IMG/VR virus record: IMGVR_UViG_3300036795_000338
Coordinates: 1-30,400 of that record
Length of the DNA: 30,400 nucleotides
Source of the DNA: a virus
Direction: 5' to 3' (one strand)
Part shown: positions 1 to 30,172 of the stretch, one piece after another
Layout of the letters: every line of letters begins with the position of its first letter
Numbering within the stretch: position 1 is the first letter of the stretch
Position numbers and translations under genes: made by a program
Notes under the pieces: model-generated
The model's database searches: none
Told to the model about the DNA's origin: nothing
What the model saw: the letters and a program-made list of their open reading frames with translations, nothing else

Positions 1-1
1 C

Positions 2-1315: not shown

Positions 1316-1324
1316 GAGGGCTAT

Positions 1325-1969: not shown

Positions 1970-2005
1970 CTTCCATTCGGAGGCTTGCGCGACGATAGGA
2001 ACAGT

Positions 2006-2548
2006 GTGACCACCGACCTTGCCGACTGGACCGACCCGCTGCGGCGTTCGGTTGCGACACCTGGCGAGTTCGCGTCGTTCTTCCCGAACACCTCCGACGA
2101 TGATCTGATCAGCAACCTGATGGACGGTCTCGGTCAGGCGCAGCTCGACGGCTTCCTGTTGGCGCCGACGATGTATGAGGTCGATGAGGACGGCATCGTC
2201 ACCCCTGACTTGTCCCGCCCGCAGGCCGCGCTGGTCGTGGTCTACTCCACGGCGCAATTCCTGACTGCGGTGATGACCAACCGCAAGAACAAGACGAAGT
2301 ACGCCGCGCGGGGCAACGAGGCTGACACCGAGCAGTCGGCGTCGATCATCACTGCGCTGCTCAAGCAGGCCAGCGACCGCATCATCTACCTGCGCGAGCG
2401 CCAGCGCCTCGCGGGCACCGCCTCGGCGTTCCTGATGGCCGACCTCTACCTGGTTAAGGCGATCGGCTATGTCAACTCCGGTGACCTCGCTCTTGCCGGC
2501 GAGGCGTGGGGTCAGGCGCTGGACATCGGGCCGTTCTACGGCGGGTGA
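2006..2548 (+). CDS. Head-tail connector (neck) protein
   Basis: A protein of 180 residues if it starts at the GTG at 2006, preceded by AGGA at a suitable distance; a longer TTG start at 1985 is possible but has a poorer ribosome binding site. The N-terminal half holds the motif-like stretch FASFFPNTSDDDLISNLMDG and the second half is mostly helical (SASIITALLKQASDRIIYLRERQRLAG). A small, acidic, largely helical protein as the first of a run of neck genes ahead of the tail tube matches the position and fold type of adaptor/head-tail connector proteins of siphoviruses. The assignment is by gene order and general character, not by a recognised signature. The next gene starts six bases after its stop. 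Confidence 0.65.
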   Translation: MTTDLADWTDPLRRSVATPGEFASFFPNTSDDDLISNLMDGLGQAQLDGFLLAPTMYEVDEDGIVTPDLSRPQAALVVVYSTAQFLTAVMTNRKNKTKYAARGNEADTEQSASIITALLKQASDRIIYLRERQRLAGTASAFLMADLYLVKAIGYVNSGDLALAGEAWGQALDIGPFYGG

Positions 2549-2554
2549 TGAGTC

Positions 2555-3019
2555 ATGGCCGGAATCAGTTCTGAGTTCGACGCTGACGGTTTCCGCGCGG
2601 CGATCCGCAACGTCGAGGAGATCTTCGCGCCGCCGCTCGAGGCGGAGCGCGCGACGTTCTTTTTCCCGCACCAGCTCGTCTACACCGACGGCACCGACGC
2701 CGACGATGTGCCATTTGACCGTGACGCGGTCCCGGTCGTCACCCAGGTGGTGCCCTCGGTGCAGGTGCCGTGCTCGGTGGCCTACTTTGATTCCTCCGGC
2801 GCCCTGACCGACTTCGGCATCCTGGTGCCCAGTCGGGCGGAGCTCACCTTCCTCGACGAGGACTACCACCGGGTCGATGGCAGTGTGATGGGCACCTCGC
2901 ACTTCAGCTACGTGGCGCTGCGAGGAGAGAAGTTCGTCTACCGCTCGACGGAGTTCCCGACCGGGCTGTTCGACGTGGGGATCTACGTCGTTCATGTTGC
3001 GGCTGAGGACCAGCGGTGA
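2555..3019 (+). CDS. Head closure / head-tail connector protein
   Basis: 154 residues from ATG at 2555, within a few bases of the previous stop. The predicted composition is beta-rich (runs such as VTQVVPSVQVPCSVAYF and RAELTFLDEDY) with an N-terminal acidic helix. It sits in the second position of the neck operon, where head-completion or stopper proteins, which are small beta-barrels that close the portal channel, are normally found. The protein ends in VGIYVVHVAAEDQR and its stop codon overlaps the GTG of the next gene (GTGA), a sign of translational coupling. No catalytic motif is seen. The name is an inference from order, size and composition. Confidence 0.6.
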   Translation: MAGISSEFDADGFRAAIRNVEEIFAPPLEAERATFFFPHQLVYTDGTDADDVPFDRDAVPVVTQVVPSVQVPCSVAYFDSSGALTDFGILVPSRAELTFLDEDYHRVDGSVMGTSHFSYVALRGEKFVYRSTEFPTGLFDVGIYVVHVAAEDQR

Positions 3020-3561
3020 CGTCCATCTTCGACCCGGTCGTCCTGCCGGGACTGTCGTTCTGGTCACGCCATGTGCACCAGACGGTGGCGAAGTTCATCG
3101 AGGAGCAGTTGGCGAACAACGGCTGGGTCAACGACCCGGTCAATTTCGGCACGAGCGCGGTGCACTTCGAGGAGTTCCAGCCCGAGGAGGCTGGCACTGA
3201 CTTGGTGCCTAACACGGTATCGATCTCCCTCGGCGACGTCCCGGAGCAGCAGCTCGAGCAGCTCGGTGGCGGCCTGTATTCGTTGTCGGTGCCGATCTTC
3301 GTCGACATCTATGGCGCGAAGATCTCGATCTCAGTCTCGATTGCCGACGACGTCCGCCGGCTGCTTACCGACCGCGCGCTGCCGCTGTTCGACTGGACGG
3401 ATCCGGCGAACCCGGTGGCGATGGACACCTCCTACATCGAGTTCGAGCGGGTGATTGGACCGCGGCAGCCGATGGCGGCCGCAGCTGCGTCGGCGGACCT
3501 GAAGCGAAACTGGCGAGTGGTGAAACTGACTGCGGTGGCGTACTTCGCCAGCGACTTCTAA
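3016..3561 (+). CDS. Tail terminator / tail completion protein
   Basis: 181 residues starting at a GTG that overlaps the stop of the upstream gene by four bases. The N-terminus carries a helix (WSRHVHQTVAKFIEEQLAN) followed by alternating strands: GLYSLSVPIFVDIYGAKISI and a C-terminal RNWRVVKLTAVAYFASDF. A helix followed by a sheet with a paired strand ending in a characteristic 'VxLTAxxYF' tail is the usual layout of tail terminator proteins, which cap the tail tube and join it to the head. Position just before the small helical gene and the tail tube protein supports this. Family membership is inferred and not proven by a diagnostic residue. Confidence 0.6.
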   Translation: MTSIFDPVVLPGLSFWSRHVHQTVAKFIEEQLANNGWVNDPVNFGTSAVHFEEFQPEEAGTDLVPNTVSISLGDVPEQQLEQLGGGLYSLSVPIFVDIYGAKISISVSIADDVRRLLTDRALPLFDWTDPANPVAMDTSYIEFERVIGPRQPMAAAAASADLKRNWRVVKLTAVAYFASDF

Positions 3562-3577
3562 GAAACGGAAACGGGAC

Positions 3578-3868
3578 ATGGCAGTAGAGGACAGCATCGT
3601 CAAGCGCCTCGCCAACGAGCATCGCAAGATCCTGGTGCGCAACCTCATGTTCTACTTCGAGGCCCAGTCCTGGTGGAAGGCCCTGACCGACGAGCAGCGA
3701 CGGGCGATTCGCAAGGAGGTCTACGAGAAGACCAACGGCTACCACGACTTCATGATGGCGGTGATTAACGTCACCGACCAGGACGAGCGCAACGAGGGGG
3801 CGGTCGAGCTGCTCGGCCAGGTCCTCGCCGGTCAGAACCGGCTCGAGCGGGCGATTGGCAATGCCTAA
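3578..3868 (+). CDS. Small helical neck-region protein
   Basis: 96 residues from ATG at 3578, with a purine-rich GGAAACGGGAC upstream. It is charged and predicted to be almost entirely helical (VKRLANEHRKILVRNLMFYFEAQSWWKALTDEQRRAIRKEV, split over several helices) with many Arg, Lys, Glu and Trp residues. No membrane segment. Its stop codon lies inside the start of the next gene, an eight-base overlap that suggests coupled translation. I do not recognise the family. Position between the tail terminator and the tail tube gene suggests a head-tail joining or tail assembly role. Confidence 0.7.
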   Translation: MAVEDSIVKRLANEHRKILVRNLMFYFEAQSWWKALTDEQRRAIRKEVYEKTNGYHDFMMAVINVTDQDERNEGAVELLGQVLAGQNRLERAIGNA

Positions 3869-4577
3869 CTGGTTCGCCAGCCTCGCGGTCAACGACCTCG
3901 AGAGTGACATCGACATCGAGTTCGTTTACATCCCGGACGCAACCGAACGAATGGCCCGTGACTCTAGAGGCTGGTTCGCTTCCGCTCAGGTCGAGATCGG
4001 CCAGGCGATGGAGACTCTGGCGATCCGGTTGCAGAAGGCTCAGGTCGCCGCACTGGAGAGAGCCATCGAGGCTGGTGGGCGCGAGCAACGCGGTACTCAC
4101 TACCTGGAGGACGCGATCCTTTCGCCGTCGAACCGGGTCGTCACCGGTGATGGTTTCCTTGTCGGTGTCGAGAGTGCTTTCGAGGAGTCCGAGGCCGGGT
4201 CCTACTGGCGTGGCCTGGAAGAGGGCACCAGCAAGCACATCGGCCAGAAGATGTATGGCCTCTGGGTGACTGCGGGCGGCGGGCTCGACATTCCTCGCGA
4301 GGGTGGAAGGAACGCGATCGGATTTCTGGGTTGGCGCAAGATCGACGAGGACACCAGGGCGGAGCATCGCGACGACGAGAAGGGCGGCAGGCTGCCGGGG
4401 TTCCGGATCCACAAGAAGACCGAGGCGGTGCACTACCTCCAGCAGGGAGTTGACGACTTCGTGGCCTCCGGGGCGATCCAGGAGGAGTTGAATGCCGCAA
4501 TCGCCAAGGCGCGCCGGGTCCAGGAGATTTCAATCGAGCGCGGGATCACGACCGTCGAGGCTCGTGGGCTGCTCTGA
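3861..4577 (+). CDS. Neck or minor tail protein, possibly tail-completion-like
   Basis: 238 residues from the ATG at 3861; a TTG at 3855 would add only two residues. The protein has an N-terminal alpha/beta part, a long helix around residues 40-75 (SAQVEIGQAMETLAIRLQKA), then a Gly-rich segment (THYLEDAILSPSNRVV, and YWRGLEEGTSKHIGQ) and a C-terminal helix rich in Ala, Arg and Glu. A central 'YW..LEeGts' segment after a long helix recalls HK97 gp10-type tail completion proteins, although this protein is longer than most of them. The assignment is tentative. A 61-base gap with a separate ribosome binding site separates it from the tail tube gene. Confidence 0.6.
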   Translation: MPNWFASLAVNDLESDIDIEFVYIPDATERMARDSRGWFASAQVEIGQAMETLAIRLQKAQVAALERAIEAGGREQRGTHYLEDAILSPSNRVVTGDGFLVGVESAFEESEAGSYWRGLEEGTSKHIGQKMYGLWVTAGGGLDIPREGGRNAIGFLGWRKIDEDTRAEHRDDEKGGRLPGFRIHKKTEAVHYLQQGVDDFVASGAIQEELNAAIAKARRVQEISIERGITTVEARGLL

Positions 4578-4638
4578 TTGTTGATTCCGGGCTGCGGGGG
4601 GCCGAGAACATGACTGTGACGACAATGAAGGAGACCAA

Positions 4639-5907
4639 ATGAGCGTCCGCGCTGCTGAGCTGATCCACGTCGGCAACTCGATCCTCATCGATCGCCTGCA
4701 GCAGGCGGGTCCGGCGAACCTGAACCAGAACGTCACCACGATCTACGAGCTGGGTGACTACGAGTCGCTGGACCGCATCCGCGACATCCCGGACTACACC
4801 ATGCCGATGCAGTCCTTCGACGCCCGGGCGCAGATGGAGGCCATCCTCCTCGGTTTGGACTATGACGGGATGGCCGATGGCCACCTGATGGACATCAGCG
4901 AGGTGCTGCCGCTCGACGTGCTCGGCGAGTACAAGAAGGGCAAGACCAACGCCGACCCGTTCGGCATCCGCGCCGGAGTCATCCTGCCGCAGCTCTACAC
5001 CGAGTCGATCCAGTACCGCTACGGCCTACGTCAGAACGCGGCTCAGACGGTCAACCTGCGTGGCGACCAGATCGGCTGGAACGACGCCTCGGCGTACGAG
5101 GAGACCTTTACCGGCTCTGGTGCGGCTGGTCAGGCCTGTGCGCTGACCCACGGCGCGCTGCCATATAACGGTGACTCGATCTCGGGGACTAAGTACGCCT
5201 TCAGCGTCTCCCTCGCCTCAGGCAAGCGGCTGTTCCTCGGCGCTGACTACACCGAGACCACCACCGGGTCCGGCCAGGCCAAGACCGCCACGGTGCATGT
5301 CATCGCCTCGGTGCCCAACACTGACAAGATCCGGATCACGTACTTCTCCCCGACCGTCGCGGAGTACCCGCAGGTCTCGCATGCACCGGCCAGTGCGGTG
5401 GCGCCGGCGGCGATTCGGGGCAAGGACATCGAGGTTCGCATCGGCGGCACGGATGTGGCCGATCGTTGGTCAGGTGTGCAGAGCGTGCAGTGGAACTGGA
5501 CCGTCACGCTGGACCGTGATGAGGAGTTCGGCAACCCACTCGTGGTCAGCCAGGACTTCGACGTCCCGGACGTCGGCGGCACGATCAACATCAAGCCGCG
5601 CGACATGGCCGACTTCCTCGCCCGGATCCGTCAGATCACTGGCGTGGCCTCGGGTGAGACCGCTGGCCCGAACGTCACCAACCCGGTGCCTGCCATGGTG
5701 ACTCTGCACTCTCCGGTCACCGGCAAGGCGATCAAGTCGTTGTTCACCCCGGACGCCGTGTTCGACCTGCCGGGCTACAACCAGCAGGTGCAGACGAAGT
5801 TCACCCAGGATATGACCTTCGCCAGCCAGAGCGGTCAGTTCTACGTCGTGAAGAACGGCTTCGTCGACTGGGACGGCACCGACGCGACCGGTGTGGCGGA
5901 CAGCTGA
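4639..5907 (+). CDS. Major tail (tube) protein
   Basis: 422 residues from ATG at 4639, preceded by a good ribosome binding site (GAAGGAG, seven bases upstream). It lies immediately before the frameshifted chaperone pair and the tape measure gene, the invariable place of the tail tube subunit. The protein has an N-terminal part with acidic and aromatic residues (TTIYELGDYESLDRIRDIPD), Ile/Val/Thr-alternating strands through the middle, and a region at about residues 185-260 rich in Gly, Thr and Ser that may be an inserted Ig-like or decoration domain. At 422 residues it is larger than the minimal tube fold of about 200, in keeping with extra surface domains. Strong codon bias (C/G third positions) fits high expression. 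A hairpin with 12-bp arms follows. Confidence 0.8.
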   Translation: MSVRAAELIHVGNSILIDRLQQAGPANLNQNVTTIYELGDYESLDRIRDIPDYTMPMQSFDARAQMEAILLGLDYDGMADGHLMDISEVLPLDVLGEYKKGKTNADPFGIRAGVILPQLYTESIQYRYGLRQNAAQTVNLRGDQIGWNDASAYEETFTGSGAAGQACALTHGALPYNGDSISGTKYAFSVSLASGKRLFLGADYTETTTGSGQAKTATVHVIASVPNTDKIRITYFSPTVAEYPQVSHAPASAVAPAAIRGKDIEVRIGGTDVADRWSGVQSVQWNWTVTLDRDEEFGNPLVVSQDFDVPDVGGTINIKPRDMADFLARIRQITGVASGETAGPNVTNPVPAMVTLHSPVTGKAIKSLFTPDAVFDLPGYNQQVQTKFTQDMTFASQSGQFYVVKNGFVDWDGTDATGVADS

Positions 5908-5932
5908 GCCTGATCCTCTAGGGGAGCATGAA

Positions 5933-5964
5933 CCTCGCCGGGTCGGTGTGCCCGGAGGCCGAGG
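5933..5964 (+). terminator. Hairpin downstream of the tail tube gene
   Basis: CCTCG (5933-5937) plus CCGGG (5938-5942) face CCCGG (5951-5955) and CGAGG (5960-5964), giving a bulged hairpin with ten pairs. It precedes a stronger hairpin in the same gap. It has no U-tract of its own, so it may be an RNA-stabilising or auxiliary structure and not a terminator. Confidence 0.45.
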
Positions 5965-5976
5965 AAATACAAGCGA

Positions 5977-6016
5977 AACGGGAGCAAGTCGGCCGCGCGG
6001 CCAGCTTGCTCCCGTT
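5977..6016 (+). terminator. Strong hairpin between tail tube and chaperone genes
   Basis: A perfect 12-bp inverted repeat, AACGGGAGCAAG (5977-5988) and CTTGCTCCCGTT (6005-6016), encloses the palindrome GGCCGCGCGGCC (5991-6002), so nearly the whole 40 bases can fold into one rod. It is followed by the T-rich but interrupted TGTGTGTTC. A partial terminator here would lower expression of the chaperones and tape measure relative to the abundantly needed tail tube protein, as is common in siphoviruses; that role is inferred. Confidence 0.75.
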
Positions 6017-6055
6017 GTGTGTTCACGGAACGGGACCGGACCAAGGGAGAGACAG

Positions 6056-6946
6056 ATGGCGAACAAGAGATACCACCGCCTGGAGGAGCTGTACCGCCGC
6101 GGTGTTGAGCTGGAGTTCGAGACCGGCGACGTGATGTGGATCCAGGTGATGAACCCCCTGGAGGCCGACAACGCCCGCGAGGAGTCCAAGACCGCCAAGG
6201 CGCGCCGGGTGATGGCCCTGAAGGAGATCGGGTCGGACGAGCAGACCAAGGCGATGTATGACTTCTCCCTGTTGCCGAAGTTGGCGGCGATCGAGACGAT
6301 CCTGACCAGCCAGCAGCCGCTATGGCTGGCGCAGGCCGACGAGAAGCTGCGGGACGACCCCGAGTGGAAGGAACGCCTGGAGATCGTCGACCGGGCCAAC
6401 GTCATTCAGGCAGCGCCACCGGATGAGGCCGAGCGCGAGCTGTCAACCAAGATCGTCGACGAGTACATCGCCGAGATCTACCAGCGGGTCGGTGAGGTTT
6501 CTGCGGCCGAGGCCGAGCACCTGCAGGCCAGCGAGGAGACCGACGTCAGGGACCGCTGGCTCGAGCTCTATGTCACCCGGCTGGGCGACGAGGTCGCGCT
6601 GGCAGAGTTCCAGGTCACGTCGTCGTGGTACGGCACCCGGGTGTGTGTGGCGACCAAGAACGAGGACGGCAGCTTCGACCACAGGAACTGCGGCGGACAC
6701 ACTGCGCAGGTCTATGACACCAAGGAGGACTTCAGGTCAGCGCCGCTTGAGGTGCAGAACGCGATCGAACTGAGGCTCATGGAACTGAATATGACCGCGA
6801 GGGCGGCAAAAAACTCGGACAGCGCAGCGAGTTCCTCCGACTCGTCAGCGCAGCAAAACACGCCGGAGGAATCGACGCCCTCTACCCCAACCGCAACCCT
6901 CTCGACTGCACCTGGTACCTCCACACTGCAGTCCAGCATGCCCTAG
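6056..6946 (+). CDS. Tail assembly chaperone (G-like, zero-frame product)
   Basis: 296 residues from the ATG at 6056, which follows AGGGAGAGAC; the frame is open upstream but that stretch runs through the hairpin and is unlikely to be translated. The body (residues 1-250) is helical and charged with a substrate-like mix (YHRLEELYRRGVELEFETGD). After the slippery site the zero frame continues for about 45 residues of Ser, Thr, Pro and Ala only, which is the kind of low-value tail seen when the other frame is the selected one. The gene sits between tail tube and tape measure, as lambda gene G does, and its product is expected to bind the tape measure protein during tail assembly without being part of the virion. 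Confidence 0.85.
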   Translation: MANKRYHRLEELYRRGVELEFETGDVMWIQVMNPLEADNAREESKTAKARRVMALKEIGSDEQTKAMYDFSLLPKLAAIETILTSQQPLWLAQADEKLRDDPEWKERLEIVDRANVIQAAPPDEAERELSTKIVDEYIAEIYQRVGEVSAAEAEHLQASEETDVRDRWLELYVTRLGDEVALAEFQVTSSWYGTRVCVATKNEDGSFDHRNCGGHTAQVYDTKEDFRSAPLEVQNAIELRLMELNMTARAAKNSDSAASSSDSSAQQNTPEESTPSTPTATLSTAPGTSTLQSSMP

Positions 6947-7140
6947 CGGTACTCGGATGGATGGAGATCATCAAGGACGAAGACCGGCCGCCGGAGGAGA
7001 TCTGGCTTGACGGTGAGGCGATCCAGGACTGGTTCGCCCGAGTGAAGGAACGACGAGATAGCGAGACCGCCGGCGAAGAGTCGGTGCCGATGGATCAGAA
7101 CGAGGCCACGAAGGGCCTCAGGCAGAGATTGGGAGGCTAG
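6056..7140 (+). CDS. Tail assembly chaperone (G-T-like, -1 frameshift product)
   Basis: The fusion is made by reading 6056-6814 in the zero frame and, after a -1 slip, 6814-7140 in the other frame, giving about 361 residues. The frameshifted extension is 108 residues long, begins LGQRSEFLRLVSAAKHAGG and contains aromatic and charged residues (DCTWYLHTAVQHALAVLGW, later IWLDGEAIQDWFARVKERR) in a natural-looking mixture with C/G-biased wobble positions. No good independent start exists in this frame other than ATG at 6961, which would miss half of it. In lambda the T part recruits tail tube subunits to the G-coated tape measure; the same job is expected here. The stop is two bases from the next start. 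Confidence 0.85.
6808..6851 (+). promoter_or_regulatory. -1 programmed frameshift site with stem-loop
   Basis: The zero frame reads gcA AAA AAC, so bases 6808-6814 form the heptamer A AAA AAC in the exact phase needed for simultaneous -1 slippage. Eight bases further on, GCGC (6822-6825) and CGAGT (6828-6832) can pair with ACTCG (6840-6844) and GCGC (6848-6851), a plausible stimulatory stem-loop. The -1 frame is then open to the stop at 7138-7140, right before the tape measure ATG. Confidence 0.88.
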
Positions 7141-7142
7141 GG

Positions 7143-10100
7143 ATGACTGTATACACCTTCGAAATCAATGCCTTTGCCAACCTGCCTTCGCTCGAGCAGG
7201 CGCTTTCGCAGATCCGTTCCGCCTTGGAGACCGGGTCCGCACAACTGCGCTCGGCGCTGAGTATCACTCCGACGGTGAACCCGGAAGCCTTCGAGAAACT
7301 GACCGCTGACCTCAATGCGACGGGCGAGAAGGCCGTGGCACAGGCCGTCAAGGCCGGCGAGGAGATCGGCCAGGCGCTTTCACAGAAGATCCCGATCAGC
7401 AATGATCTCGGTTCTCGTCTCAACACCGTACTTCGTGACGCGCTCGCGGAGATGCGGGCGCAGATCGAGCAGTTCTCTGCGACCACCCACATCCTTGGTG
7501 ACGACCGGGCGGTGTTGAGCGAGTTCGCTGGTGAGTTTCAGTCGACGATGCTGCGCTCGATCCAGGTGGTCGCTGCCGATCTGCGCAAGGAGCTCAACCT
7601 TGCGGCCCGTTCGGCGCAGTTGGACCCACGCGCGGTCACGGGGCAGTTCAAGGGCTCACAGATCGCGGCCGCCTCCAGCCGTCAGCTGACGCCGGTCGTT
7701 AACGACATGGAGGCGGAGCGCCAGCGTCTCGAAGCATCTCGGACTGGTGGGGCGGGCTCGCCCGCCGCAGTTGCCAACAGGCTCGTCACCGCTGTCGACA
7801 TCATTTTGCAGGAGGCGCTGGACGCGGTCGAGGCAGGGCGGGCGCTTACCTCTGCGCAGGCTGCCAAGTTGCGCGAGATCGGTCTGGCCCAGGACTTCCG
7901 CAGGCCTGGTAGTACAGGACCAATCTCGCCGACTGCGCCCTTGGTGGTCGATACCGGCGCAGGTCAGCCGGCGGTCTTCCGTCCCCAGAAGGATGGCACC
8001 TTCGCACCGTACAGCGAAGAGGAGACGCTGCAGTTCAACCGCGACTTAGAGAACGCCAGCGCACAGCTGCAGCGAACGACGGCAGCCGATGAGGTAAAGC
8101 AGGTTGCGACCCAGAACCTGGCACGTTTGCTGGCCGATCCAGAGGCAAAGCGAGTGGGTTCCGGCCAGACCGCGCCGTTCCGTTCGGGGCAGGGTGAGTT
8201 TTTCACTTCAACCGGAACGCCGATCGAGGAACAGGCCAGGATCAATCAGCTGCAGTTGCAGTACATCCGGCAGTTGGAGACGCGCAACTCCGAGCAGTCG
8301 GCAGCCAACTCCGTGGCGACGACACAGCGGAGCCCGGGCGGCGCCTTCCTTGGCGGCGCCACCGGACGTGGGTTCGACGCTCACGCGGCGTTCGACCCAC
8401 AGGCGGCGGTCGGGAACCTTCTTGGTACCGCCGGTGTCCTGCTGCGTTACGGCGCGATTGGTGCCGGTCTGGCCGGAGCCTTCTCGGGTCTGCACGAGCT
8501 TAAGACCCAGGTGGTGGACTACCAGTCTTCGCTGGCGAACCTCGACGAGGTCATGGGGGCCACCAAGTCCGGCCAGATCGACCTTACGAGCGCGTTCGCC
8601 GCCGCTGCGCCGGCGGGTATTGGCGCAGCCGACGCGGTCGACCTCGGCGCCGAGGCACTGGCCAGGTACCGCAGCGAGATCGAGGCCGGTGCTAGCGCGA
8701 ACGACATCTTCCAGACCAGCCTGCTCAATATTGGCCAGGCCTCGGTGCTCACCGGGGTTGACGCCAAGACCGTCGGCGAGCAGCTTATCGACGCCACGCA
8801 GGGCTTCAAGGTCGGCTCGACCGGTCAGAGCCGGATCCTGGACGCGGTCGAGAATGCGCGCAAGAACTTTGGTGGCGATCGTGCCCAGATCATCCAGGCG
8901 ATCGGCGACGCTGGCGACCTTGCTAGCCAGGCCGGTATCGACCCGGAAGAGCTCTCCAACATCGTCGCCCTGATCCAGTCACGGACCGGTGCCACCGGCT
9001 CCACGGTTGCCTCGGCCTTCGAGCGCACCGTCTCCCGCCAGGGCACAGGCCAGTTCCAGCAGGCCCTCGGCGCCTTGGGTATCCAGGACACCGGCGACTT
9101 GGTCAGTGAGATCACTCAGCTCAGTACGGCCTATCAGCACCTGAACAAGACCCAGCAGGATACCCTTGTCGCCCAGCTCGGTGGTGCCCGCCAGGCGCGC
9201 GAACTGTTGCCGCTGTTGGAGGAGGGTACCGGCCTGGTCGACGCAAACGCCCGTTCCTATGCGGGTGCCGGCGCGGCGGCGCAGCAGTACGAACGCCAGC
9301 AGGCCACGCTGGCCGGCGAGCTCCGCCAGATCAGTGGTGAGCTCAAGGACTTCGCGGCTGCGCTGGCCCAGTCCGGCGCCTTCGACGCGCTCGGGTTGAT
9401 TGCCGAGGGGTTCAAGGACGTCCTCGGCGGAGTCGATGAGTTGCTGGCGGCCTTCGATGGCGTTCCTCGGATCTTCCGTGACGCTGCGTTCGGCGCCTTC
9501 GAGCTCCTTCTGGTCCTGCGCCTGATCGGCAACGAGCAGGAGAAGATCGCGATCGGTAACGCCGTCGCCAAGGTACCGGTGCTGGGCAGTTTTGCCAGTC
9601 GTATCGGTCTTGGCACCCGGGCGGCTGCGGAGACCCCCGAGGCGACCGGGGCGGAGGCTCTGGCCAACGCCGGAAACGTCGCGGCCGAGCGGTTGATCGC
9701 AGGTGCCGACGCGGCAGCCGAGCGACTGGCTGCGGGTGGTGCCGCAGCGGGCGAGGCGAATGCGATCGGTGGCATCGGCGCGGCTGAGGCTGGTGCCGCT
9801 AGTCGTGTCGGCGCAGTGAACTTCATCGGCGACAGCCCGGAGGTTGCCGGTGTGGTCGCACCGGCAGAAGCGGCGGCGGTAGTGGCGCCCTCCGAGGGTG
9901 CGGCTATCGGTGCGGCTTTTGCTGGGGGCGCTTCGCGCGAAGCGGCTGGTCTACCCGCGTTGAAAGGAATCAGCGGGTTTGCTGGCGGTGTTGGAGTCGC
10001 TGGTGAAGGTGCTGCTGCCGGGGGCGCAGCTGCTCTGGGTCTGCTGACCAACCCGATCACGCTCGCTATCGGCGGCTTGATCGCCATCGGCGGTGTGACC

Positions 10101-12551
10101 AATTCGATGCATCGGCTCAGCGCGGCATCTGCGCAGGGGTCATTGGCGTTGGAGTCGTTGAACAACGCAAACACTCCGCAGACGTTGACGACGGCCGAGG
10201 ATGCATTGAGGTCTGCGCGGCAGCAGGTTGCCCACGATTCGGGTGGGCCGTTCGGCAGCATCGCCGGGTTCTTTACCGGAGCTCACGGCAAGGAGGCGAC
10301 TTTCGAGGCGAATGCGGAGTACGCACACAACCTGGCTTCACGGATCGCAGGGGAGACCGGTAATACCGCGACTCTGTCGCAGAACGTGTTTGGCCCGTCG
10401 GGCAGCGACATCGTCACCGGCTTGAAGACGATGGCACAGGAAGGTGTCTCGGCCTCGACCCAGCTGCATGCCGTCGCCAAAGCTCTTGGCGTGGTGGGTG
10501 CTCAGGCAGGGGATGCGAAGAGTCTGCTCGGTGGTACCGAAAAGGGGTCGCTGAACTCGGTGCTGGGGCTGCGCAACGTCGGTCAGCTCAACGCCGGACT
10601 CGTCTCGGATCCGGCGAGCTACGCCAGAGAGATTCCGAGTCTGGCCACCGATGGGCATTTGCGTCGGTTCGCCGGGCAGAGCAACGTCGACACTCTTGAT
10701 GTTCCCGATGCGGCCAAGCTTTCTGCGGCTGTTGACGCAGCGCTGAAGAACCGTCCCGATGGGGCGTTGCTGACTGACGCGGACAAGCAGAAGATCGCGA
10801 CGAATATCGCGGAGACTTTCGGGGTTACCGGTTCGGACACCGACAAGATCCGTGCCGATATCCGGGCGGGAGTGCTGCAGCGCCTTTCGACCTTGAGCCA
10901 TCGGTCGCAGACCACCGGAACTGCGCCGATCACCGACGACGCACTGAAGACGATCCTCGGTGGCGAGGATGGCAACTCCGGATTGTTGTCGGTCATTTCA
11001 TCTTTCCAGCCGGACGCCTTCGACCCGACCGGCGGCGCTGACCAGCTTCGCAACGCTATCGGGATTCTGAAGAACTTCGCTTCCCGGGCTGATCGCAGTG
11101 GGCCGGAGTATGCGGTCTTGATCGCGGCATTGCATCAGGAAGAAGATAAGTACGCCCAGGCCCGGATCTCTGACATCGAGCGACTGCGAGCGGCGGCAGA
11201 CGCCCGGACGTCGCCGGCCAACTACGCCGAGATCGACCAGGGCTACTTCGACCGCGAGATCACGGCCGCCGGCGCCGACACGAACCAGATCATCGGCGTG
11301 ATCGACAACATGACCCATGCCCAGATCAAGCTCGTCGAGCAGATGCTGCGACACCAGGTCCAGCTCGCTCGCGCCGCTGACGACGCCGCGACTGAGCTTG
11401 CTGCCCATATCCCGTCTGCCGAGCGCTCCGGGGTACTTGGTTCTGCTGATGACAACCTGAACACCGCACTGGATAACCTGCAGGCCTTCATCGAGGGCAA
11501 GAGGCGGTCGACGACCGCCGACGGCACGAACAGTGGCCCGAACGCAACTCAGCAGGCCCGTTTGGCCCAGATCGAGTCGCAGGCGCAGTCGGGCAACGAC
11601 GTGCAGAACGCCCAGATCGCGTTGCAGGCAGCTAATTACCAGTTCAAGATTGCCCACAAGGGCACTGCCGATTACTACAGCGCCGTGAAGGCGGTTGCGG
11701 ACGCAAAGTACCAGCTCTCGCAGGCCGAGGAGCAGGCTGCCTCGGCAGCTGTGGCCGCCAATGTCTATCCGGGCTCGGCGCTGTCTTCGGCTCGGGCCTC
11801 GATCATCGAGGCCAAGGATGCGGTGACGGCGGCGATCCCCGGCACCGCGGCGTTCTTCCAAGCCGAGCAACAGCTCAAGCAGGCCCAGATCGACTACGGC
11901 AACGCGCTAATCCAGTATCACGCCACCGAGCGATCGCTGAACACTGACGACACCGACCCGGTGGTGCAGGCGCGCAACACCCTGGCTACTGCCCGGGCGC
12001 AGCTACGGGTAGATCAGCGCCGTGGCGCTCCCAAGGATGTGATTGCTACCGATGCTCTGGCGGTCAAGGACGATACCCAGGCTCGGCAGGCAGCAGGGTT
12101 CCAGCAGCGGCTGTCCGATGTGCAGACCCTGCACAACCTGCAGCGGCTGTCTGATCAGGCGTACCTGAACTATCTTGGCCACGAGCATGACCGGCTCGAG
12201 GCGATCAAGCACAAGACCCGTCAGCAGACCGACGAGCTCAACTCGATCGACTTGGCGATTAAGTCTGCCAACGAGCAGATGCAGGGCCAGTTCAACATCG
12301 GTGACATCCATGTGCCGACGCCGTACGAGGCCAAGCGTTACGTCGAGTCACAGATGCAAGGCGAGAACTATGCCACTGCGCGGATCTCCCATACGCATAA
12401 TAACCAGCGCAACACGGTGATCAACAACCACAACCACCAGCGTTTCGACTTCCGGGGATTGGACAAGCGCGAGGTGCAGGAGATTCTACGTGAGGCGCTC
12501 GGTGGCGAGGCGACCCACCGTAGTGGGGTTGCTACCCGCAAGGGGATGTAG
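7143..12551 (+). CDS. Tail tape measure protein
   Basis: 1802 residues from ATG at 7143 (GGGAGGC upstream), the longest gene here. Residues 1-400 are helical and Gln/Ala/Arg-rich, with heptad-like spacing. A Gly/Ala-rich hydrophobic stretch at about 420-450 is followed by a region (about 455-700: DYQSSLANLDEVMGATKSG, and later FERTVSRQGTG and GGARQARELLPLLEEGTG) that resembles the TP901-type conserved block of tape measure proteins. Residues about 835-975 are an Ala/Gly low-complexity stretch; a second hydrophobic segment lies at about 961-985 (LLTNPITLAIGGLIAIGGV). The rest is coiled-coil-like, ending in a His/Asn-rich patch. It sets tail length and is threaded through the tube; at roughly 0.15 nm per residue the tail would be about 270 nm (inference). 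No lysozyme or peptidase motif was found. Confidence 0.93.
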   Translation: MTVYTFEINAFANLPSLEQALSQIRSALETGSAQLRSALSITPTVNPEAFEKLTADLNATGEKAVAQAVKAGEEIGQALSQKIPISNDLGSRLNTVLRDALAEMRAQIEQFSATTHILGDDRAVLSEFAGEFQSTMLRSIQVVAADLRKELNLAARSAQLDPRAVTGQFKGSQIAAASSRQLTPVVNDMEAERQRLEASRTGGAGSPAAVANRLVTAVDIILQEALDAVEAGRALTSAQAAKLREIGLAQDFRRPGSTGPISPTAPLVVDTGAGQPAVFRPQKDGTFAPYSEEETLQFNRDLENASAQLQRTTAADEVKQVATQNLARLLADPEAKRVGSGQTAPFRSGQGEFFTSTGTPIEEQARINQLQLQYIRQLETRNSEQSAANSVATTQRSPGGAFLGGATGRGFDAHAAFDPQAAVGNLLGTAGVLLRYGAIGAGLAGAFSGLHELKTQVVDYQSSLANLDEVMGATKSGQIDLTSAFAAAAPAGIGAADAVDLGAEALARYRSEIEAGASANDIFQTSLLNIGQASVLTGVDAKTVGEQLIDATQGFKVGSTGQSRILDAVENARKNFGGDRAQIIQAIGDAGDLASQAGIDPEELSNIVALIQSRTGATGSTVASAFERTVSRQGTGQFQQALGALGIQDTGDLVSEITQLSTAYQHLNKTQQDTLVAQLGGARQARELLPLLEEGTGLVDANARSYAGAGAAAQQYERQQATLAGELRQISGELKDFAAALAQSGAFDALGLIAEGFKDVLGGVDELLAAFDGVPRIFRDAAFGAFELLLVLRLIGNEQEKIAIGNAVAKVPVLGSFASRIGLGTRAAAETPEATGAEALANAGNVAAERLIAGADAAAERLAAGGAAAGEANAIGGIGAAEAGAASRVGAVNFIGDSPEVAGVVAPAEAAAVVAPSEGAAIGAAFAGGASREAAGLPALKGISGFAGGVGVAGEGAAAGGAAALGLLTNPITLAIGGLIAIGGVTNSMHRLSAASAQGSLALESLNNANTPQTLTTAEDALRSARQQVAHDSGGPFGSIAGFFTGAHGKEATFEANAEYAHNLASRIAGETGNTATLSQNVFGPSGSDIVTGLKTMAQEGVSASTQLHAVAKALGVVGAQAGDAKSLLGGTEKGSLNSVLGLRNVGQLNAGLVSDPASYAREIPSLATDGHLRRFAGQSNVDTLDVPDAAKLSAAVDAALKNRPDGALLTDADKQKIATNIAETFGVTGSDTDKIRADIRAGVLQRLSTLSHRSQTTGTAPITDDALKTILGGEDGNSGLLSVISSFQPDAFDPTGGADQLRNAIGILKNFASRADRSGPEYAVLIAALHQEEDKYAQARISDIERLRAAADARTSPANYAEIDQGYFDREITAAGADTNQIIGVIDNMTHAQIKLVEQMLRHQVQLARAADDAATELAAHIPSAERSGVLGSADDNLNTALDNLQAFIEGKRRSTTADGTNSGPNATQQARLAQIESQAQSGNDVQNAQIALQAANYQFKIAHKGTADYYSAVKAVADAKYQLSQAEEQAASAAVAANVYPGSALSSARASIIEAKDAVTAAIPGTAAFFQAEQQLKQAQIDYGNALIQYHATERSLNTDDTDPVVQARNTLATARAQLRVDQRRGAPKDVIATDALAVKDDTQARQAAGFQQRLSDVQTLHNLQRLSDQAYLNYLGHEHDRLEAIKHKTRQQTDELNSIDLAIKSANEQMQGQFNIGDIHVPTPYEAKRYVESQMQGENYATARISHTHNNQRNTVINNHNHQRFDFRGLDKREVQEILREALGGEATHRSGVATRKGM

Positions 12552-24560: not shown

Positions 24561-24630
24561 AAGGACCGGCTACACGACGTGACTGCGCCCGGGAAGGGCA
24601 GGTCACGCGAGTGGCCGGTCCTTTCGTTTG
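24561..24630 (+). terminator. Branched terminator-like structure
   Basis: A perfect 10-bp outer stem, AAGGACCGGC (24561-24570) and GCCGGTCCTT (24614-24623), encloses a second stem CGTGAC/GTCACG (24578-24583 and 24602-24607) and a third GCCC/GGGC (24587-24590 and 24596-24599). The outer arm ends in CCTTTCGTTTG, a T-rich run after a GC-rich stem. This is the pattern of an intrinsic terminator, with an unusually large head. It argues against an early start for the HNH gene. Confidence 0.65.
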
Positions 24631-24650
24631 TTACGGGAACGGGAGCGGAC

Positions 24651-25169
24651 TTGATTATCCAGCGAGTGACGACGACGCCGATAGCGAGAATGCTCGCGCG
24701 GTTGGTCGTCGATGCGGACGGTTGCTGGGTGTGGCCTGGCGCTACCAATCAGGTTTCGGAGGCTCAAGGCGGCGGTGGTTACGGTCAGGTGCGTGACACC
24801 GAAGCTCGGAAGACGCTCATGGTTCACATCGTTGCTTTCGAGCACTTCCACGGCTCCGTTCCGGAGGGGCATGTCGTAGACCATCAGTGCCACAACGACG
24901 ATCCAACGTGCCCTGGTAACGGCTGCAAGCATCGTCGCTGTTGGAACCCCGACCACCTGGTTGCTCGATCGTTTGCGGCCAACTGTGCCGCAGGTAAATC
25001 GCCGGGAGCGGTGGTGGTTCGCGAAGGTGTCTGCCAGAAGGGTCTGCATCCTCGAACGCCGGAGAACCTGATCGTCAGCATCCGCAAGAACGGCACCGTT
25101 CACGCTCAGTGTCGACCATGCAATCGCGAATGGCAACGTGCTCGGTATGCGCGGAAGGTGAACGGATGA
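24651..25169 (+). CDS. Free-standing HNH homing endonuclease
   Basis: 172 residues from TTG 24651, with GGGAG five bases upstream; GTG 24666 and ATG 24690 are alternatives, and the GTG at 24579 lies inside the terminator-like hairpin. It makes a DNA break at a specific site and spreads itself by repair. The signature is clear: DADGCWVWPGATNQ, GYGQVR, then MVHIVAFEHFHG, VVDHQCHNDDPTC (first His and Asn of HNH), a Cys/His cluster CKHRRCWNPDHL (second H and N) and a C-terminal C-x18-C-x2-C-like cluster (CQKGLHP to CRPC). This matches the zinc-stabilised HNH_3 type common in actinophages. Codons are more A/T-ending than those of the genes that follow, a sign of separate ancestry. Its stop overlaps the start of the nuclease gene (ATGA). 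Confidence 0.88.
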   Translation: MIIQRVTTTPIARMLARLVVDADGCWVWPGATNQVSEAQGGGGYGQVRDTEARKTLMVHIVAFEHFHGSVPEGHVVDHQCHNDDPTCPGNGCKHRRCWNPDHLVARSFAANCAAGKSPGAVVVREGVCQKGLHPRTPENLIVSIRKNGTVHAQCRPCNREWQRARYARKVNG

Positions 25170-27028
25170 TCATACATCAATCAGATCTGGGCGCGTGGAG
25201 CCGATGCCCCGCACAATTTGGCTATCAGCGCGCCGGGATGCCGCGCAAGACGACGTCGGCACTGGCGTACGGCTCTGTGATGCACCACGCACTGCACGTA
25301 CTGGAGGACCAGGTCGCCAACGGCACGAACCTGATCGATGCTCTCAATATCGCGATCGAGACGTTCACCACCTACTGGGACCCGCGCAACATCGAGGCGA
25401 TCTGCGAGAAGGTGGCCGAGGACGGCTGGATCCGTGGCCAGGGCTACACCGAGCTGCGGATGCGTGGAGTCGCAGCGCTGCGCAGCTACGCGGACCTGAT
25501 GCGGTTCGAGAAGATGGAGGTGCTCGGCCTGGAGTACTCCTTCATGTGCCCGATCGAGAACACCTGGGACGAGGAGCTGGGCGAGCCGCACATCCTTGCC
25601 GGGACCGTCGATCGGCTCGCGGCCAGGTTTCACAAGCGCGTCGAGACACTGTGCGTGGATGACTACAAGGGGCTGGCGCGGGACACCGAGATCCCCACGC
25701 CGACCGGCTGGACGACCATGGGTGCGGTTGAGGTTGGCGACGAGATATTCGGCGCTGATGGCAGTCCTTGTCGGGTGATCGGAAAGTCAGAGATCCATGA
25801 TCGGCCCTGCTATCGCGTGACGTTTGATGATGGGTCGAGTGTCGTCGCCGACAATGTCCATCTCTGGGCAACCCTCCGTGGCCGTCATTGTGAGCCGACT
25901 GTCATAGATGTCGAGGATCTTCGGTTGGATTTGGTAGACGACCGTGGGCAACGACACCATCGTGTGCAAAATGCCGCAGCTCTCCATCTGCCGGAAGTTG
26001 ATCTTCCAGTTGACCCTTATGTGCTCGGGTGTTGGATCGGCGACGGCAAGCGCAGCAGTGGCGAGCTCACTACTGGAGATGCCGAGCAGTGGGATCTCAT
26101 CAAAGAGTGTGGCTATGGAGTCGGTTCGAGTCCCGGTATCACGCGAACGATTCTCGGTCTTCGTCGTCAGTTGATCGATGCTGGCTATCTGGGACATAAG
26201 CAGATTCCAGACGTCTATCTCCGAGCCAGCATGGATCAGCGATTGGCGCTCCTGCAGGGTCTTTGTGACACGGATGGGTCATGGCATCGACGTCGACACC
26301 AGGTGCAGTTCGTATCGGTGGACAAGGGTCTCGCCACTTCGGTTCGCGAGTTGGCGTTGAGCCTCGGGGCGAAGGCTCGCTTGTGGGAGTACCAGGCTTG
26401 CGGGTTCGGCATTGTGCGTACTGCTTATCGTGTGACGTTCTCGCCGACTGACTTCAATCCATTCAGGCTTTCTCGCAAGGCTTCCTTGGTTCGGCCTGGA
26501 ATGACGAACGCACGTCGTCGCATTGTTGTGTCAGTTGAGCCGACCTTGAGGGTGCCGACGCAGTGCATCATGGTCGACTCGCCAGATCATCTGTATCTCT
26601 GTGGTGAGTCGATGATTCCTACGCACAACACCGGCAAGACCCAGTATCACCTGCAGCACAACCTGCAGTTCACCGCCTATCTGTGGGCCACGACCAAGCC
26701 CGAGTTCTGGCTCGGCTGGCGCGGCGAGGAAGGCTTCGGCGAGGCACGAGGCGCCCAGTTGTTCGAACGGTTCGCCGAGACGCCGCGGCGCGCGTTCTGG
26801 ATCAACCTCAAGGACCTGAAGGTCCAGGACGCCGGGTTCCGTAACGAGATCCACTACCGCCGGTTCATCCTCGCGGTCAACCAGGTCACAGCCAGCGTTA
26901 CTGCTGACATCTTCCCGCTGACCATCTCCGGTGAGGCCTGCACCTATTGCGAGTACCGCGACGTCTGTGGTGGTTTGCCGGTGCCGAGCGAGGACTACGA
27001 CCCGACGCTGGAGGTCCTCGGTGCCTAA
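25166..27028 (+). CDS. RecB/Cas4-type Fe-S nuclease with an in-frame intein
   Basis: A precursor of 620 residues from ATG 25166 (GGAAGG upstream); after removal of residues 169-488 the host protein is 300 residues, normal for Cas4/RecB-like exonucleases of phages. Nuclease motifs: YGSVMHHAL (His40/41, motif I), GTVDRL (Asp149, motif II) and DDYK-TGK (Asp166-x-Lys168, motif III, joined after splicing), then a QF...YLWATT helix. Iron-sulfur ligands are Cys14 (SRCPAQF) and the C-terminal set Cys592, Cys595 and Cys601 (CTYCEYRDVC). It should act as a DNA exonuclease in recombination or end processing. The intein splits the Lys of motif III from the following Thr, so the enzyme cannot work before splicing. 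It overlaps the BCS1-like gene by eight bases. Confidence 0.9.
   Translation: MIIHQSDLGAWSRCPAQFGYQRAGMPRKTTSALAYGSVMHHALHVLEDQVANGTNLIDALNIAIETFTTYWDPRNIEAICEKVAEDGWIRGQGYTELRMRGVAALRSYADLMRFEKMEVLGLEYSFMCPIENTWDEELGEPHILAGTVDRLAARFHKRVETLCVDDYKGLARDTEIPTPTGWTTMGAVEVGDEIFGADGSPCRVIGKSEIHDRPCYRVTFDDGSSVVADNVHLWATLRGRHCEPTVIDVEDLRLDLVDDRGQRHHRVQNAAALHLPEVDLPVDPYVLGCWIGDGKRSSGELTTGDAEQWDLIKECGYGVGSSPGITRTILGLRRQLIDAGYLGHKQIPDVYLRASMDQRLALLQGLCDTDGSWHRRRHQVQFVSVDKGLATSVRELALSLGAKARLWEYQACGFGIVRTAYRVTFSPTDFNPFRLSRKASLVRPGMTNARRRIVVSVEPTLRVPTQCIMVDSPDHLYLCGESMIPTHNTGKTQYHLQHNLQFTAYLWATTKPEFWLGWRGEEGFGEARGAQLFERFAETPRRAFWINLKDLKVQDAGFRNEIHYRRFILAVNQVTASVTADIFPLTISGEACTYCEYRDVCGGLPVPSEDYDPTLEVLGA
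25670..26629 (+). mobile_element. Class 3 intein with LAGLIDADG homing endonuclease
   Basis: 320 residues in frame, between Lys168 and the Thr that begins the C-extein. The first residue is Gly (GLARDTEIPTPTGWTTMG), not Cys or Ser, so it cannot use the class 1 N-terminal acyl shift. Instead it has the class 3 'WCT' residues: Trp66 (VHLW, block B), Cys299 (PTQCIMVDSPDHLYL, block F) and Thr318 (PTHN, block G), with penultimate His319 and terminal Asn320 and Thr as the +1 nucleophile. The middle holds a two-motif LAGLIDADG endonuclease: VLGCWIGDG (Asp125) and LLQGLCDTDGS (Asp202), both with acidic residues. Hand count of wobble bases: 5 of 43 A/T-ending codons in the 43 codons before it, against 17 of 40 in a stretch inside it (25792-25911), consistent with later acquisition. 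Confidence 0.93.
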
Positions 27029-28322
27029 CGAGGTCAAGGCTGGCAAGGTAGATGTCAGCCCCACTAGGCAGGCGCTGGAGCGTGCCAACGGCTGGTACGC
27101 CGCAATGGTCGGCGCCGTTGAGTTCGGTAAGTGGCTGCGGTCGAAGTACCGCGAGCATGAGCGCACCTTCACCGTCACCCTCACCAGCGATGACGTGATC
27201 TACCAGGAGGTCCATGACTGGCTGTTGGACAACGTCCCGCTGACCGAGCAGAAAGCACTGGCCGCCCACTCTGCGACCGGAGTCGGGCACGGATCGCATT
27301 ACGAGATCGCCGACGTCAAGAGCGGGGACGAGTCCTATCGGCTGTTCCTGACTTATGACTCCAACGAGGAGACGACGATTGTCGTCAACGGCCACCCGGT
27401 CAAGGTCAGCCTGATGAAAACCAGCGGTGGTGGTTCGATCAACGAGCGCGCCTGGCGTGAGCCGGACAAGATCACGTTCTCGGCGCGGTCCCAGGCAGGC
27501 CAGCAGGCCGTCGTGGCGCACCTGCGCGAGGTTGTGGCGCAACGCCAGAGCCTCAGGCGCCGGCCGTCGTTGTGGATGCTTAGCCAGTGGGGCAGCTGGA
27601 CACGGCGAATGGATGTGCCGTTGCGCACCGCCGAGTCGGTTATCCTGCGTGAGGACCAGATGAGTCGCATCGTCGACGACCTCGGCCAGTTCCTCTCTGA
27701 GGAGTCCGAGTACGTCCGTCGCGGTATCCCGTGGCATCGCGGCTACCTGCTGCAGGGTCCTCCTGGCACCGGTAAGACCTCGATCGCCAAGGCCCTGGCC
27801 CACGCCTACAACCTCGACCTGTGGTACGCGCCGCTGGGCGACCTGGACAAGGACGCCAACCTGCTGTCGCTGCTCTCCGAGGTTCATCCCAGGTCGATGC
27901 TGCTCCTGGAGGACATCGACATCTACCACGCGGCCACCTCCCGCGAGGCCACCAGCGGCCAGGTCACGCTGTCGGGTCTGCTCAACGCCCTGGACGGTGT
28001 CTCTACACCGCATGGCCTGATCACGATCCTGACCTCCAACGAGCCCGACGTGCTCGACAGCGCCCTGGTTCGCCCGGGCCGCGTCGACCGGATCGAGAAC
28101 ATCGACTGCGTCGTGCAGGAGCAGGCCGAGCGGCTGTTCGCCTACTTCTACGGCCAGCCATCGACACGTGCCTGGAACGTCACGGGCAAGGGCCTGTCCG
28201 CTGCTGATCTCACCGAGATTTTCAAGCGGCACCTACACGACCCCGCAGGGGCAGAAAGAACGATCCGCGAAAGGACGGCGCAAGGAATGGCCACAACCGA
28301 AAGAAGGACATCGTGCCTCTGA
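27021..28322 (+). CDS. BCS1-like AAA ATPase
   Basis: 433 residues from GTG 27021, overlapping the nuclease stop by eight bases. The C-terminal half matches the mitochondrial BCS1/AAA pattern: RGIPWHRGYLLQGPPGTGKT (Walker A at 246-253), MLLLEDID (Walker B at 293-300), the VTLSGLLNALDGVSTPHGL signature, LTSNEP (sensor 1) and RPGRVDR (arginine finger region, 351-357). The N-terminal 220 residues are alpha/beta with alternating strands, as in BCS1-type N-domains, and end in a basic helix before the ATPase. There is no membrane segment, unlike the mitochondrial protein. It probably forms an ATP-driven ring working on protein or DNA partners; the substrate is not known. The operon context suggests DNA recombination or replication. 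Confidence 0.88.
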   Translation: MPNEVKAGKVDVSPTRQALERANGWYAAMVGAVEFGKWLRSKYREHERTFTVTLTSDDVIYQEVHDWLLDNVPLTEQKALAAHSATGVGHGSHYEIADVKSGDESYRLFLTYDSNEETTIVVNGHPVKVSLMKTSGGGSINERAWREPDKITFSARSQAGQQAVVAHLREVVAQRQSLRRRPSLWMLSQWGSWTRRMDVPLRTAESVILREDQMSRIVDDLGQFLSEESEYVRRGIPWHRGYLLQGPPGTGKTSIAKALAHAYNLDLWYAPLGDLDKDANLLSLLSEVHPRSMLLLEDIDIYHAATSREATSGQVTLSGLLNALDGVSTPHGLITILTSNEPDVLDSALVRPGRVDRIENIDCVVQEQAERLFAYFYGQPSTRAWNVTGKGLSAADLTEIFKRHLHDPAGAERTIRERTAQGMATTERRTSCL

Positions 28323-30172
28323 AGATTCAACGAACCGGGCTCGCCCAGTACGCACCGGGCGGTGACGCCCGGGTGAAGATGCTTGTCGTCGGCGGACCCG
28401 ACACCGGCAAGACCCGGATGTCGACGTACTGGCCGAAGCCGATCATCGCCAACTGCGAGGCCGGTCTTGCCTCGGTTGCTGATCGCGGGGTGCCCTTCGT
28501 CGACATCAAGAACTCTCGCGACATGCTCGAGTTCCTGTCCGACCTGGAGAAGGTCTGCATGCGGGCTTGGGCCGACCGCGAGTTCCAGACCGTCGTGATC
28601 GACACCGCCGACACCTTCCAGCGCAAGGTCAAGGACGAGTACATGCAGGCGCACCCGGAGATGCAGTCCTTCCGGGGCTTCGACGCCTGGGGCTACCTCG
28701 ACTCGAAGATGCAGGCGTTGTTCACCCGGCTGCTCAACCTCGACATGAACATCATCGTCAACGTCCACTACAAGGACAAGACGATCCGGGAGGGCACCGG
28801 CGAGAACGCCACCGAGCGCCAGGAGCTCATGCTCCAGCTTTCCGGTGACATCAAGGACTCGATCTTCAACGATTTCGACCTGGTCGGCTGGCTCGGCACC
28901 TACTACGCGCCGGGTGCCACCGCCGACGAGCCGCGAGTGGAGAAGCGCGGCCTGACGTTCAAGAAGTCGCCGGACCGTCCATTCCTCAAGGACCGCCTTG
29001 GTGTTACGCCGCCGTGGATGGAGGTCACGTTCAGCGAGGACGACTACTACAACCTGTTCCTCAAGATCGTGGAGCGCCTTGACGCCATTCCGGAGACCGA
29101 GGATGTCCGTGAGCTCGAGCCGTTGCCGACGCAGATGGCTGGTAATGTCGTCGGTCCGCTGGCAGGCGGTGCGGTGGCGCCGCAGGACCCGGCGAGTATG
29201 CCGTTGGAGCAGCTCGACAAGCCGTCGCTGCAGACGAAGTGCCGGGAGTGGGCAGCCAAGGCCGAACAGGCTGGTCATGTCGACGTCGTTGGCCTCCTGA
29301 AGTTCGCCAGCAACGACACCAAGCCCGTTTTGGTCGAGAAGCTCAAGCAGGCTCGGAAGATCCTCGAAGAGCGAGCAGCGGCGAAGGCCGCAGGCGCCGA
29401 CGCTGTACCTGCAGAAGCGACGGAGACACCGGCTGCAGAAGTACCGCAAGAGGTACCGGCGGAGGCCGCTGAACCAGTGGCTCCTGTTGCATCTGCGACA
29501 ACAGCCGAGCCAGCAGCAGAGACGCCTGCCGAACCGACAACTGCACCAGTGGCAGAGGTGCCTGCCGAACCGACGCCTGCCGAACCTGCTGTCGCACCGG
29601 AAACGCCCGTTGCGCCAGAGTCTGCGCCCGCACCGGCGGCTGAGCCCGCACCGGCGACTGAGCCAGTAGTTGCAACACCAGAGCCTGCTACGGCTGCGGC
29701 ACCGGCGCCGGAAACGCCCGTCGCAGCACCGGCTCCAACGACTGCCCCGACTGAGACCGTCACCACGGTCGAAGGCCAGGAGCAGGTTGACACCGCCACC
29801 GGCGAACTGCCCACGGTGGCGCCGGAAGAGGGGGTCGCGAATGCCGCGGCCGCGCTTGGAGGCGAGGTCGTTTCCGAGACCCCGGCTGTCGAAGCACCTC
29901 AAGATGAACCCCCCGCCGAGACACCAGCACCACCGGCCCAGGCCGCGCCAGCCGCACCCGCGGTGGCAGCCCCGGCGTCAGGTGGATCAGCGGGAGGCCG
30001 TGAGATCCCGGCTATCTGTCAGCGGCTCGACTGCACCACAGAGCTTGCTGGGGAGAACCAGGACTACGTGAAGATCAGCTTCGTGAAGTTCCGCAACTTC
30101 TTCTGCAACAAGGACTTCACCGAAGCAAAGACCGCAGGCAAGGTCCCGTGGCCCGTCAAAGAATCCGCGTAA
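28313..30172 (+). CDS. Sak4-like RecA-fold ATPase with long disordered linker
   Basis: 619 residues from GTG 28313 (AAGGA upstream), overlapping the previous gene by ten bases. Walker A is GGPDTGKT (27-34) and Walker B TVVIDTAD (Asp97), in the order and spacing of phage Sak4/RadB-like single-domain RecA ATPases. Residues about 270-350 include a helical module (LEQLDKPSLQTKCREWAAKAE). From about 355 to 560 the chain is Ala, Pro, Glu, Thr and Val only, with tandem-like PAE/PAP units, so it is a disordered acidic linker. The C-terminus (about 565-619) has Cys569, Cys574 and Cys598, a possible zinc-binding or protein-binding tip. Sak4 proteins promote single-strand annealing and recombination with an SSB partner, which fits the neighbours. 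Function by family; the linker role is inferred. Confidence 0.82.
   Translation: MPLKIQRTGLAQYAPGGDARVKMLVVGGPDTGKTRMSTYWPKPIIANCEAGLASVADRGVPFVDIKNSRDMLEFLSDLEKVCMRAWADREFQTVVIDTADTFQRKVKDEYMQAHPEMQSFRGFDAWGYLDSKMQALFTRLLNLDMNIIVNVHYKDKTIREGTGENATERQELMLQLSGDIKDSIFNDFDLVGWLGTYYAPGATADEPRVEKRGLTFKKSPDRPFLKDRLGVTPPWMEVTFSEDDYYNLFLKIVERLDAIPETEDVRELEPLPTQMAGNVVGPLAGGAVAPQDPASMPLEQLDKPSLQTKCREWAAKAEQAGHVDVVGLLKFASNDTKPVLVEKLKQARKILEERAAAKAAGADAVPAEATETPAAEVPQEVPAEAAEPVAPVASATTAEPAAETPAEPTTAPVAEVPAEPTPAEPAVAPETPVAPESAPAPAAEPAPATEPVVATPEPATAAAPAPETPVAAPAPTTAPTETVTTVEGQEQVDTATGELPTVAPEEGVANAAAALGGEVVSETPAVEAPQDEPPAETPAPPAQAAPAAPAVAAPASGGSAGGREIPAICQRLDCTTELAGENQDYVKISFVKFRNFFCNKDFTEAKTAGKVPWPVKESA

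Follow-up and report, generated by a model that had tools for sequence, protein, structure and literature searches.

A nuclease gene of a phage contains a class 3 intein, and within this intein lies a LAGLIDADG endonuclease that retains its two acidic residues. The gene lies in positions 1 to 30,400 of IMG/VR record IMGVR_UViG_3300036795_000338, and this whole stretch of 30,400 nucleotides is referred to as the window. It is highly probable that a full-length intein, predicted to be active and equipped for homing, has colonized the PD-(D/E)XK motif of a phage recombination nuclease. The precursor gene and its parts are as follows.

25166..27028, plus strand: precursor, a PD-(D/E)XK nuclease (PDDEXK_1, RecB/AddB-like) with the intein inside (open frame, PF12705).
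25166..25669, plus strand: N-extein, ending D166-Y167-K168 and holding motif residues D149 (GTVDR) and D166/K168 (PDDEXK_1 stretch 6-172).
25670..26629, plus strand: class 3 intein, 320 amino acids, G1/W66/C299/T318/H319/N320 (translation, phmmer, fold matches).
25670..25888, plus strand: N-terminal splicing half, blocks A and B with H64 and W66 (phmmer alignment of residues 2-73 to 6rix).
26021..26278, plus strand: LAGLIDADG endonuclease core (PF14528, motif positions, I-DmoI and PI-SceI fold matches).
26534..26629, plus strand: C-terminal splicing half, blocks F and G with C299 and T318-H319-N320 (phmmer alignment of residues 289-320 to 6rix).
26630..27028, plus strand: C-extein, beginning T(+1)GK, with C-x2-C-x5-C at its end (Cas4 model match at residues 566-602, under its cut-off).

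The insert is stop-free in translation, begins GLARDTEIPTPTGWTTMG, and ends MIPTHN. The left flank reads CVDDYK up to 25669, and the right flank reads TGKTQY from 26630. The host motif D-Y-K/T-G-K is thus divided precisely at the K/T boundary. In precursor numbering, the insert occupies residues 169-488, between residues 1-168, with DDYK at their end, and residues 489-620, with TGKTQY at their start. The precursor contains 620 amino acids, and the predicted spliced product contains 300. Its start is most likely the ATG at 25166 rather than the GTG at 25109 given by the ORF lister, since this ATG overlaps the stop of the upstream gene as ATGA. The earlier note had given the intein coordinates, the residues G1/W66/C299/T318, and the split of D-Y-K/T-G, and all were correct to the residue.

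Class 3 inteins are defined by the absence of Cys, Ser, or Thr at intein position 1 (PMC3196547). Position 1 of this intein is Gly and offers no such nucleophile. The WCT motif is present as W66 (B12), C299 (F4), and T318 (G5), aligned with W67/C118/T137 of 6bs8. The block B His is H64, and the C-terminal H319-N320 is followed by Thr(+1). Solved class 3 DnaB inteins 6rix (E value, 9e-29), 6bs8, and 6riy match both splicing halves in phmmer at E values of about 1e-28. These matches, together with Pfam LAGLIDADG_3 in the middle, show that the insert is not a chance resemblance. An AlphaFold2 model of the intein, built on a 25-sequence alignment, had a pLDDT of 95.7 and a pTM of 0.92. It superposes on class 3 DnaB intein 6bs8 with a Z score of 22.7 (1.2 A, 124 residues, 45% identity). 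The class 3 assignment made earlier, from the triad and the missing nucleophile, is borne out by this structural match.

The DnaB-1 mini-inteins of M. smegmatis and M. chimaera (6bs8 and 6rix) have the same splicing fold and WCT triad (1.2-1.9 A) but lack the endonuclease that this intein has. PI-SceI, the VMA intein, matches the model over its whole length, splicing domain and LAGLIDADG endonuclease alike (Z score, 26.5; 3.0 A; 308 residues). It differs in being a class 1 intein with a Cys1 nucleophile and a yeast ATPase host. LAGLIDADG_3 (PF14528) matches the intein middle with an E value of 3e-7 and is above its cut-off for the second motif. Motif 1 is VLGCWIGDG (intein residues 118-126), and motif 2 is LLQGLCDTDG (194-203). 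The acidic residues D125 and D202 are retained and are invariant among the seven sequences of the first alignment.

The interrupted protein matches PDDEXK_1 (PF12705) in two stretches with 43.6 bits and an E value of 4.4e-11. Once the exteins are joined, there is a single match over profile positions 5-246 of 247, with 62.3 bits (gathering score, 22) and an E value of 8.8e-17. The active-site residues are D149, D166, and K168 in spliced numbering. The arrangement of C14, C272, C275, and C281 is consistent with the Fe-S cysteines of Cas4/AddB-type nucleases. The cut-off of the Cas4 equivalog model TIGR00372 is 65 bits, and the protein scores 24.8, in its C-terminal cysteine region only. By its profile matches, the host is a PDDEXK_1 nuclease, not Cas4, since the former model is passed and the latter falls far short. 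"Cas4/RecB-type" had been the earlier description; its nuclease family stands, and the Cas4 label was loose. Insertion after the catalytic Lys, with the conserved motif as the target, was described correctly. In an AlphaFold model of the precursor, pLDDT fell under 50 for most extein residues and the model was unusable there, so the nuclease fold rests on Pfam.

The genes around the nuclease include the following.

24579..25169, plus strand: free-standing HNH endonuclease, a separate gene outside the intein (PF13392, E value 1.3e-8; phrog_826, E value 2e-36).
28313..30172, plus strand: Sak4-like single-strand annealing protein (phrog_124, E value 7.6e-28; PF13479 AAA_24).

The HNH gene lies directly upstream of the nuclease gene with the ATGA overlap. 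Its GC3 is 0.65, which is below that of the nuclease exteins. A BCS1-like AAA ATPase is also encoded downstream of the nuclease gene. The Sak4-like protein is likely the recombination partner of the nuclease. Because these two genes lie downstream, the nuclease likely does resection in phage recombination. Window positions 1-12500 (megablast) and the long protein at 7143-9500 (tblastn) had no match among phages, which indicates a phage without a close sequenced relative in those stretches.

The chemistry of class 3 splicing has been published (PMC3196547). In this protein, C299 would attack the K168-G1 bond, giving a block F thioester branched intermediate, and the N-extein would be transferred to Thr(+1). 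N320 would then cyclize, and the nuclease would be ligated as DYK-TGK. Before splicing, the catalytic Lys of D-x-K would be severed from the residues that follow it, and we infer that the precursor is inactive. For homing, the endonuclease would cleave alleles that lack the intein at the conserved DYKTGK codons, after which the intein would be copied in during repair. A regulatory role of the intein, in which splicing would serve as a switch instead of running straight to completion, is speculative.

The precursor matched 726 phage records in tblastn. The top matches were exonucleases of Streptomyces phage Frankenweenie and cluster A mycobacteriophages, followed by Pseudomonas phage Rollin. 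Scanning the IMG/VR and GTDB genomes with profiles yielded a set of 218 distinct class 3 inteins. Equivalents of the block B His (H64), W66, and C299 are present in 218/218; T318 and N320 are as well, though the end filter of the collection required them. Ser or Thr follows the intein in 216/218. Lys precedes it in at most 196/218, an upper figure because the choice of start favored a Lys within a few residues.

The host motif D/E-x-K, with T, S, or C after the intein, is found for 32 of the 218. Gly occupies position 1 in 31 of these 32 and in 13 of the 186 others. The exteins of the 32 form 10 mutually diverged BLAST groups at 1e-5, and that of the window is alone in its group. Beyond the published C1 cases, nuclease-hosted examples were found in phages of Mycobacterium (cluster A), Streptomyces, and Pseudomonas, in uncultured phages, and in actinobacterial genomes. 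Pfam placed 7 of 14 distinct hosts scanned above the PDDEXK_1 cut-off (the window, L002, L004, L010, L013, L090, and L093). The hosts of L003 and L005 were just under it, and those of Frankenweenie, L011, L021, and L030 were not recognized as PDDEXK_1. For most loci added later, the nuclease label comes from the D/E-x-K motif or the record annotation, not from Pfam.

Several other insertions were seen. L090 (3001-4164), L093 (3001-4134), and L156 are class 3 inteins at VVDYK/TGK or VVDYK/TGR in RecB-like exonucleases on actinobacterial genome contigs; the L156 copy spans two open frames and is broken or mis-sequenced. L011 (195-1175) and L175 are nuclease-hosted class 3 inteins with Cys(+1), not Thr or Ser (DLK/CPG). 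Class 3 inteins at EGK/SSLGR were found in Actinomycetota and Chloroflexi genomes (L103, L099, L158, L146, L154, L164, and L165). Their hosts look like dCTP deaminase genes (Pfam DCD, E value 4e-45 for L103), a host besides ATPases and nucleases in which the insertion again follows Lys. L017, L019, L022, L036, and L078 contain class 3 inteins after YNF, YNY, or YNYW, not after Lys, in a group of phage proteins that are possibly portal proteins.

Both the kind of intein and the exact residue junction have precedents. Kelley et al. (2016) described 40 inteins in RecB/Cas4-like exonucleases of C1 mycobacteriophages, all at a single PD-(D/E)XK insertion point (PMC5050341). These nucleases were the second largest mycobacteriophage intein group, and the RecB intein was close to TerL1-d (PMC5050341). 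The junction of C1 phage Ava3 reads VELK/SLACST...VPTHN/TQNS; like the intein of the window, it is a class 3 intein at a K/T junction in PD-(D/E)XK. A nuclease had been expected to be a less usual host for class 3 inteins. The 40 published cases and the further examples across phages and actinobacterial genomes contradict this.

The C-cluster nuclease inteins differ from that of the window. Position 1 is Ala and Ser in the two that were examined, rather than Gly, and their host nucleases have no BLAST similarity to that of the window. Their lineage also appears to be different. The C-cluster intein L005 (ScoobyDoobyDoo) is sister to L050 with support of 100/100 in a careful 51-row tree, and L050 is found in the terminase of LittleE (cluster J) and other phages. 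The intein of the window falls within a 14-row all-nuclease clade in the same tree (100/98). It shares this lineage with the Cas4 exonuclease inteins of Mycobacterium cluster A phages (Traft412, Zeeculate, Dexes, and DiMaria) and with those of Frankenweenie and Rollin. These inteins are 41-47% identical to it over the matched part, and those of Traft412, Frankenweenie, and Rollin have the same K/T junction and Gly1. Their host nucleases are diverged from that of the window and are labeled exonuclease or hypothetical protein, mostly without mention of an intein. The Frankenweenie gene is annotated "Cas4 exonuclease and intron."

Forcing all nuclease inteins together was rejected in the 51-row tree (P = 9e-7), but an 84-row tree built more quickly did not reject it (P = 0.19). 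The C-cluster type therefore likely, though not provably, reached the K/T junction independently, making two arrivals. Traft412 (L002) and L013 have sister inteins (100/99) but exteins from different BLAST groups. This points to movement of inteins between diverged nucleases.

Empty sites are present in relatives of other carriers. Treddle lacks the intein and reads VVDWK-TGLK, versus VVDYK/intein/TGLK in Traft412, and the exteins are 98% identical. Differences between the two lie close to the junction, at -1, -4, -5, and +3, and the next ones are only at -58 and +162. Co-transfer of a short flank with the intein would produce this pattern. Chargie21 also lacks the intein and reads VELK-TQNS, versus VELK/intein/TQNS in Ava3. 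Intein-free D-x-K-T alleles of this kind had been predicted, and they do exist in related phage nucleases. Searches of phages and IMG/VR with the joined extein matched no relative of the window's own nuclease and hence no empty allele of its gene.

Two other signs were considered. The 17 of 18 identical central target bases between the window and L010 were dropped as a sign of homing, because both encode DYKTGK in GC-rich codons. The GC3 of the intein is 0.61, versus 0.85 for the exteins; this is a weak sign of recent arrival, as two other listed ORFs of the window are also at 0.62.

Splicing might be conditional, with a C47-C299 disulfide acting as a redox-sensitive brake on the nuclease. This would add to colonization by a homing intein rather than replace it, and we regard it as improbable. 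In M. smegmatis DnaBi1, a C48-C118 disulfide halts splicing under oxidation (PMC6195587). C47 aligns with C48 and C299 with C118, and position 47 is Cys in 179/218 class 3 inteins (27/32 of those in nucleases). However, C48 is also required for splicing itself (PMC6195587), so its conservation does not prove a sensor, and selfish homing by itself accounts for the insertion point. By analogy with DnaBi1, the putative switch is a lead only. Cys48 of DnaBi1 was termed nonconserved in PMC6195587, yet the aligned residue is Cys in the 179 inteins counted here.

It is very improbable that the intein has decayed, being class 3 by descent but splicing-incompetent, with an inactive nuclease gene. A precedent is the class 3 pseudogene Arth_1007 of Arthrobacter (PMC3196547). 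That pseudogene lacks the block F Cys and the block B His, whereas the intein of the window keeps H64, W66, C299, T318, H319, N320, and both endonuclease acids in an open frame, with a confident model. The chance is negligible that the insert is another HINT domain (BIL or Hedgehog type) or an inserted homing endonuclease that is never removed: the fold is common to HINT relatives, but splicing blocks lie on both sides, the terminal HN is followed by Thr, the class 3 triad is present, the splicing domain is 45% identical to class 3 DnaB inteins, and relatives of other carriers have precise empty sites.

Colonization by a probably active homing intein is thus the reading that we prefer. A broader account is possible but doubtful. 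The Gly1 class 3 lineage may be specialized for the PD-(D/E)XK Lys/Thr site and may move among nucleases that BLAST does not recognize as related, with the C-cluster inteins arising separately from a terminase-type intein. In this account, C47/C299 may block the nuclease under oxidation.

These findings matter for annotation, as labels such as HNH endonuclease, exonuclease, or hypothetical, given to many such genes, miss the intein. As with the P-loop of terminases and DnaB, class 3 inteins use the nuclease motif as a regular insertion target, and they do so in phages from several hosts as well as in some genomes of actinobacteria. The 32 inteins, together with relatives of two further carriers whose sites are naturally empty, allow a direct test of whether homing follows a few conserved active-site codons.
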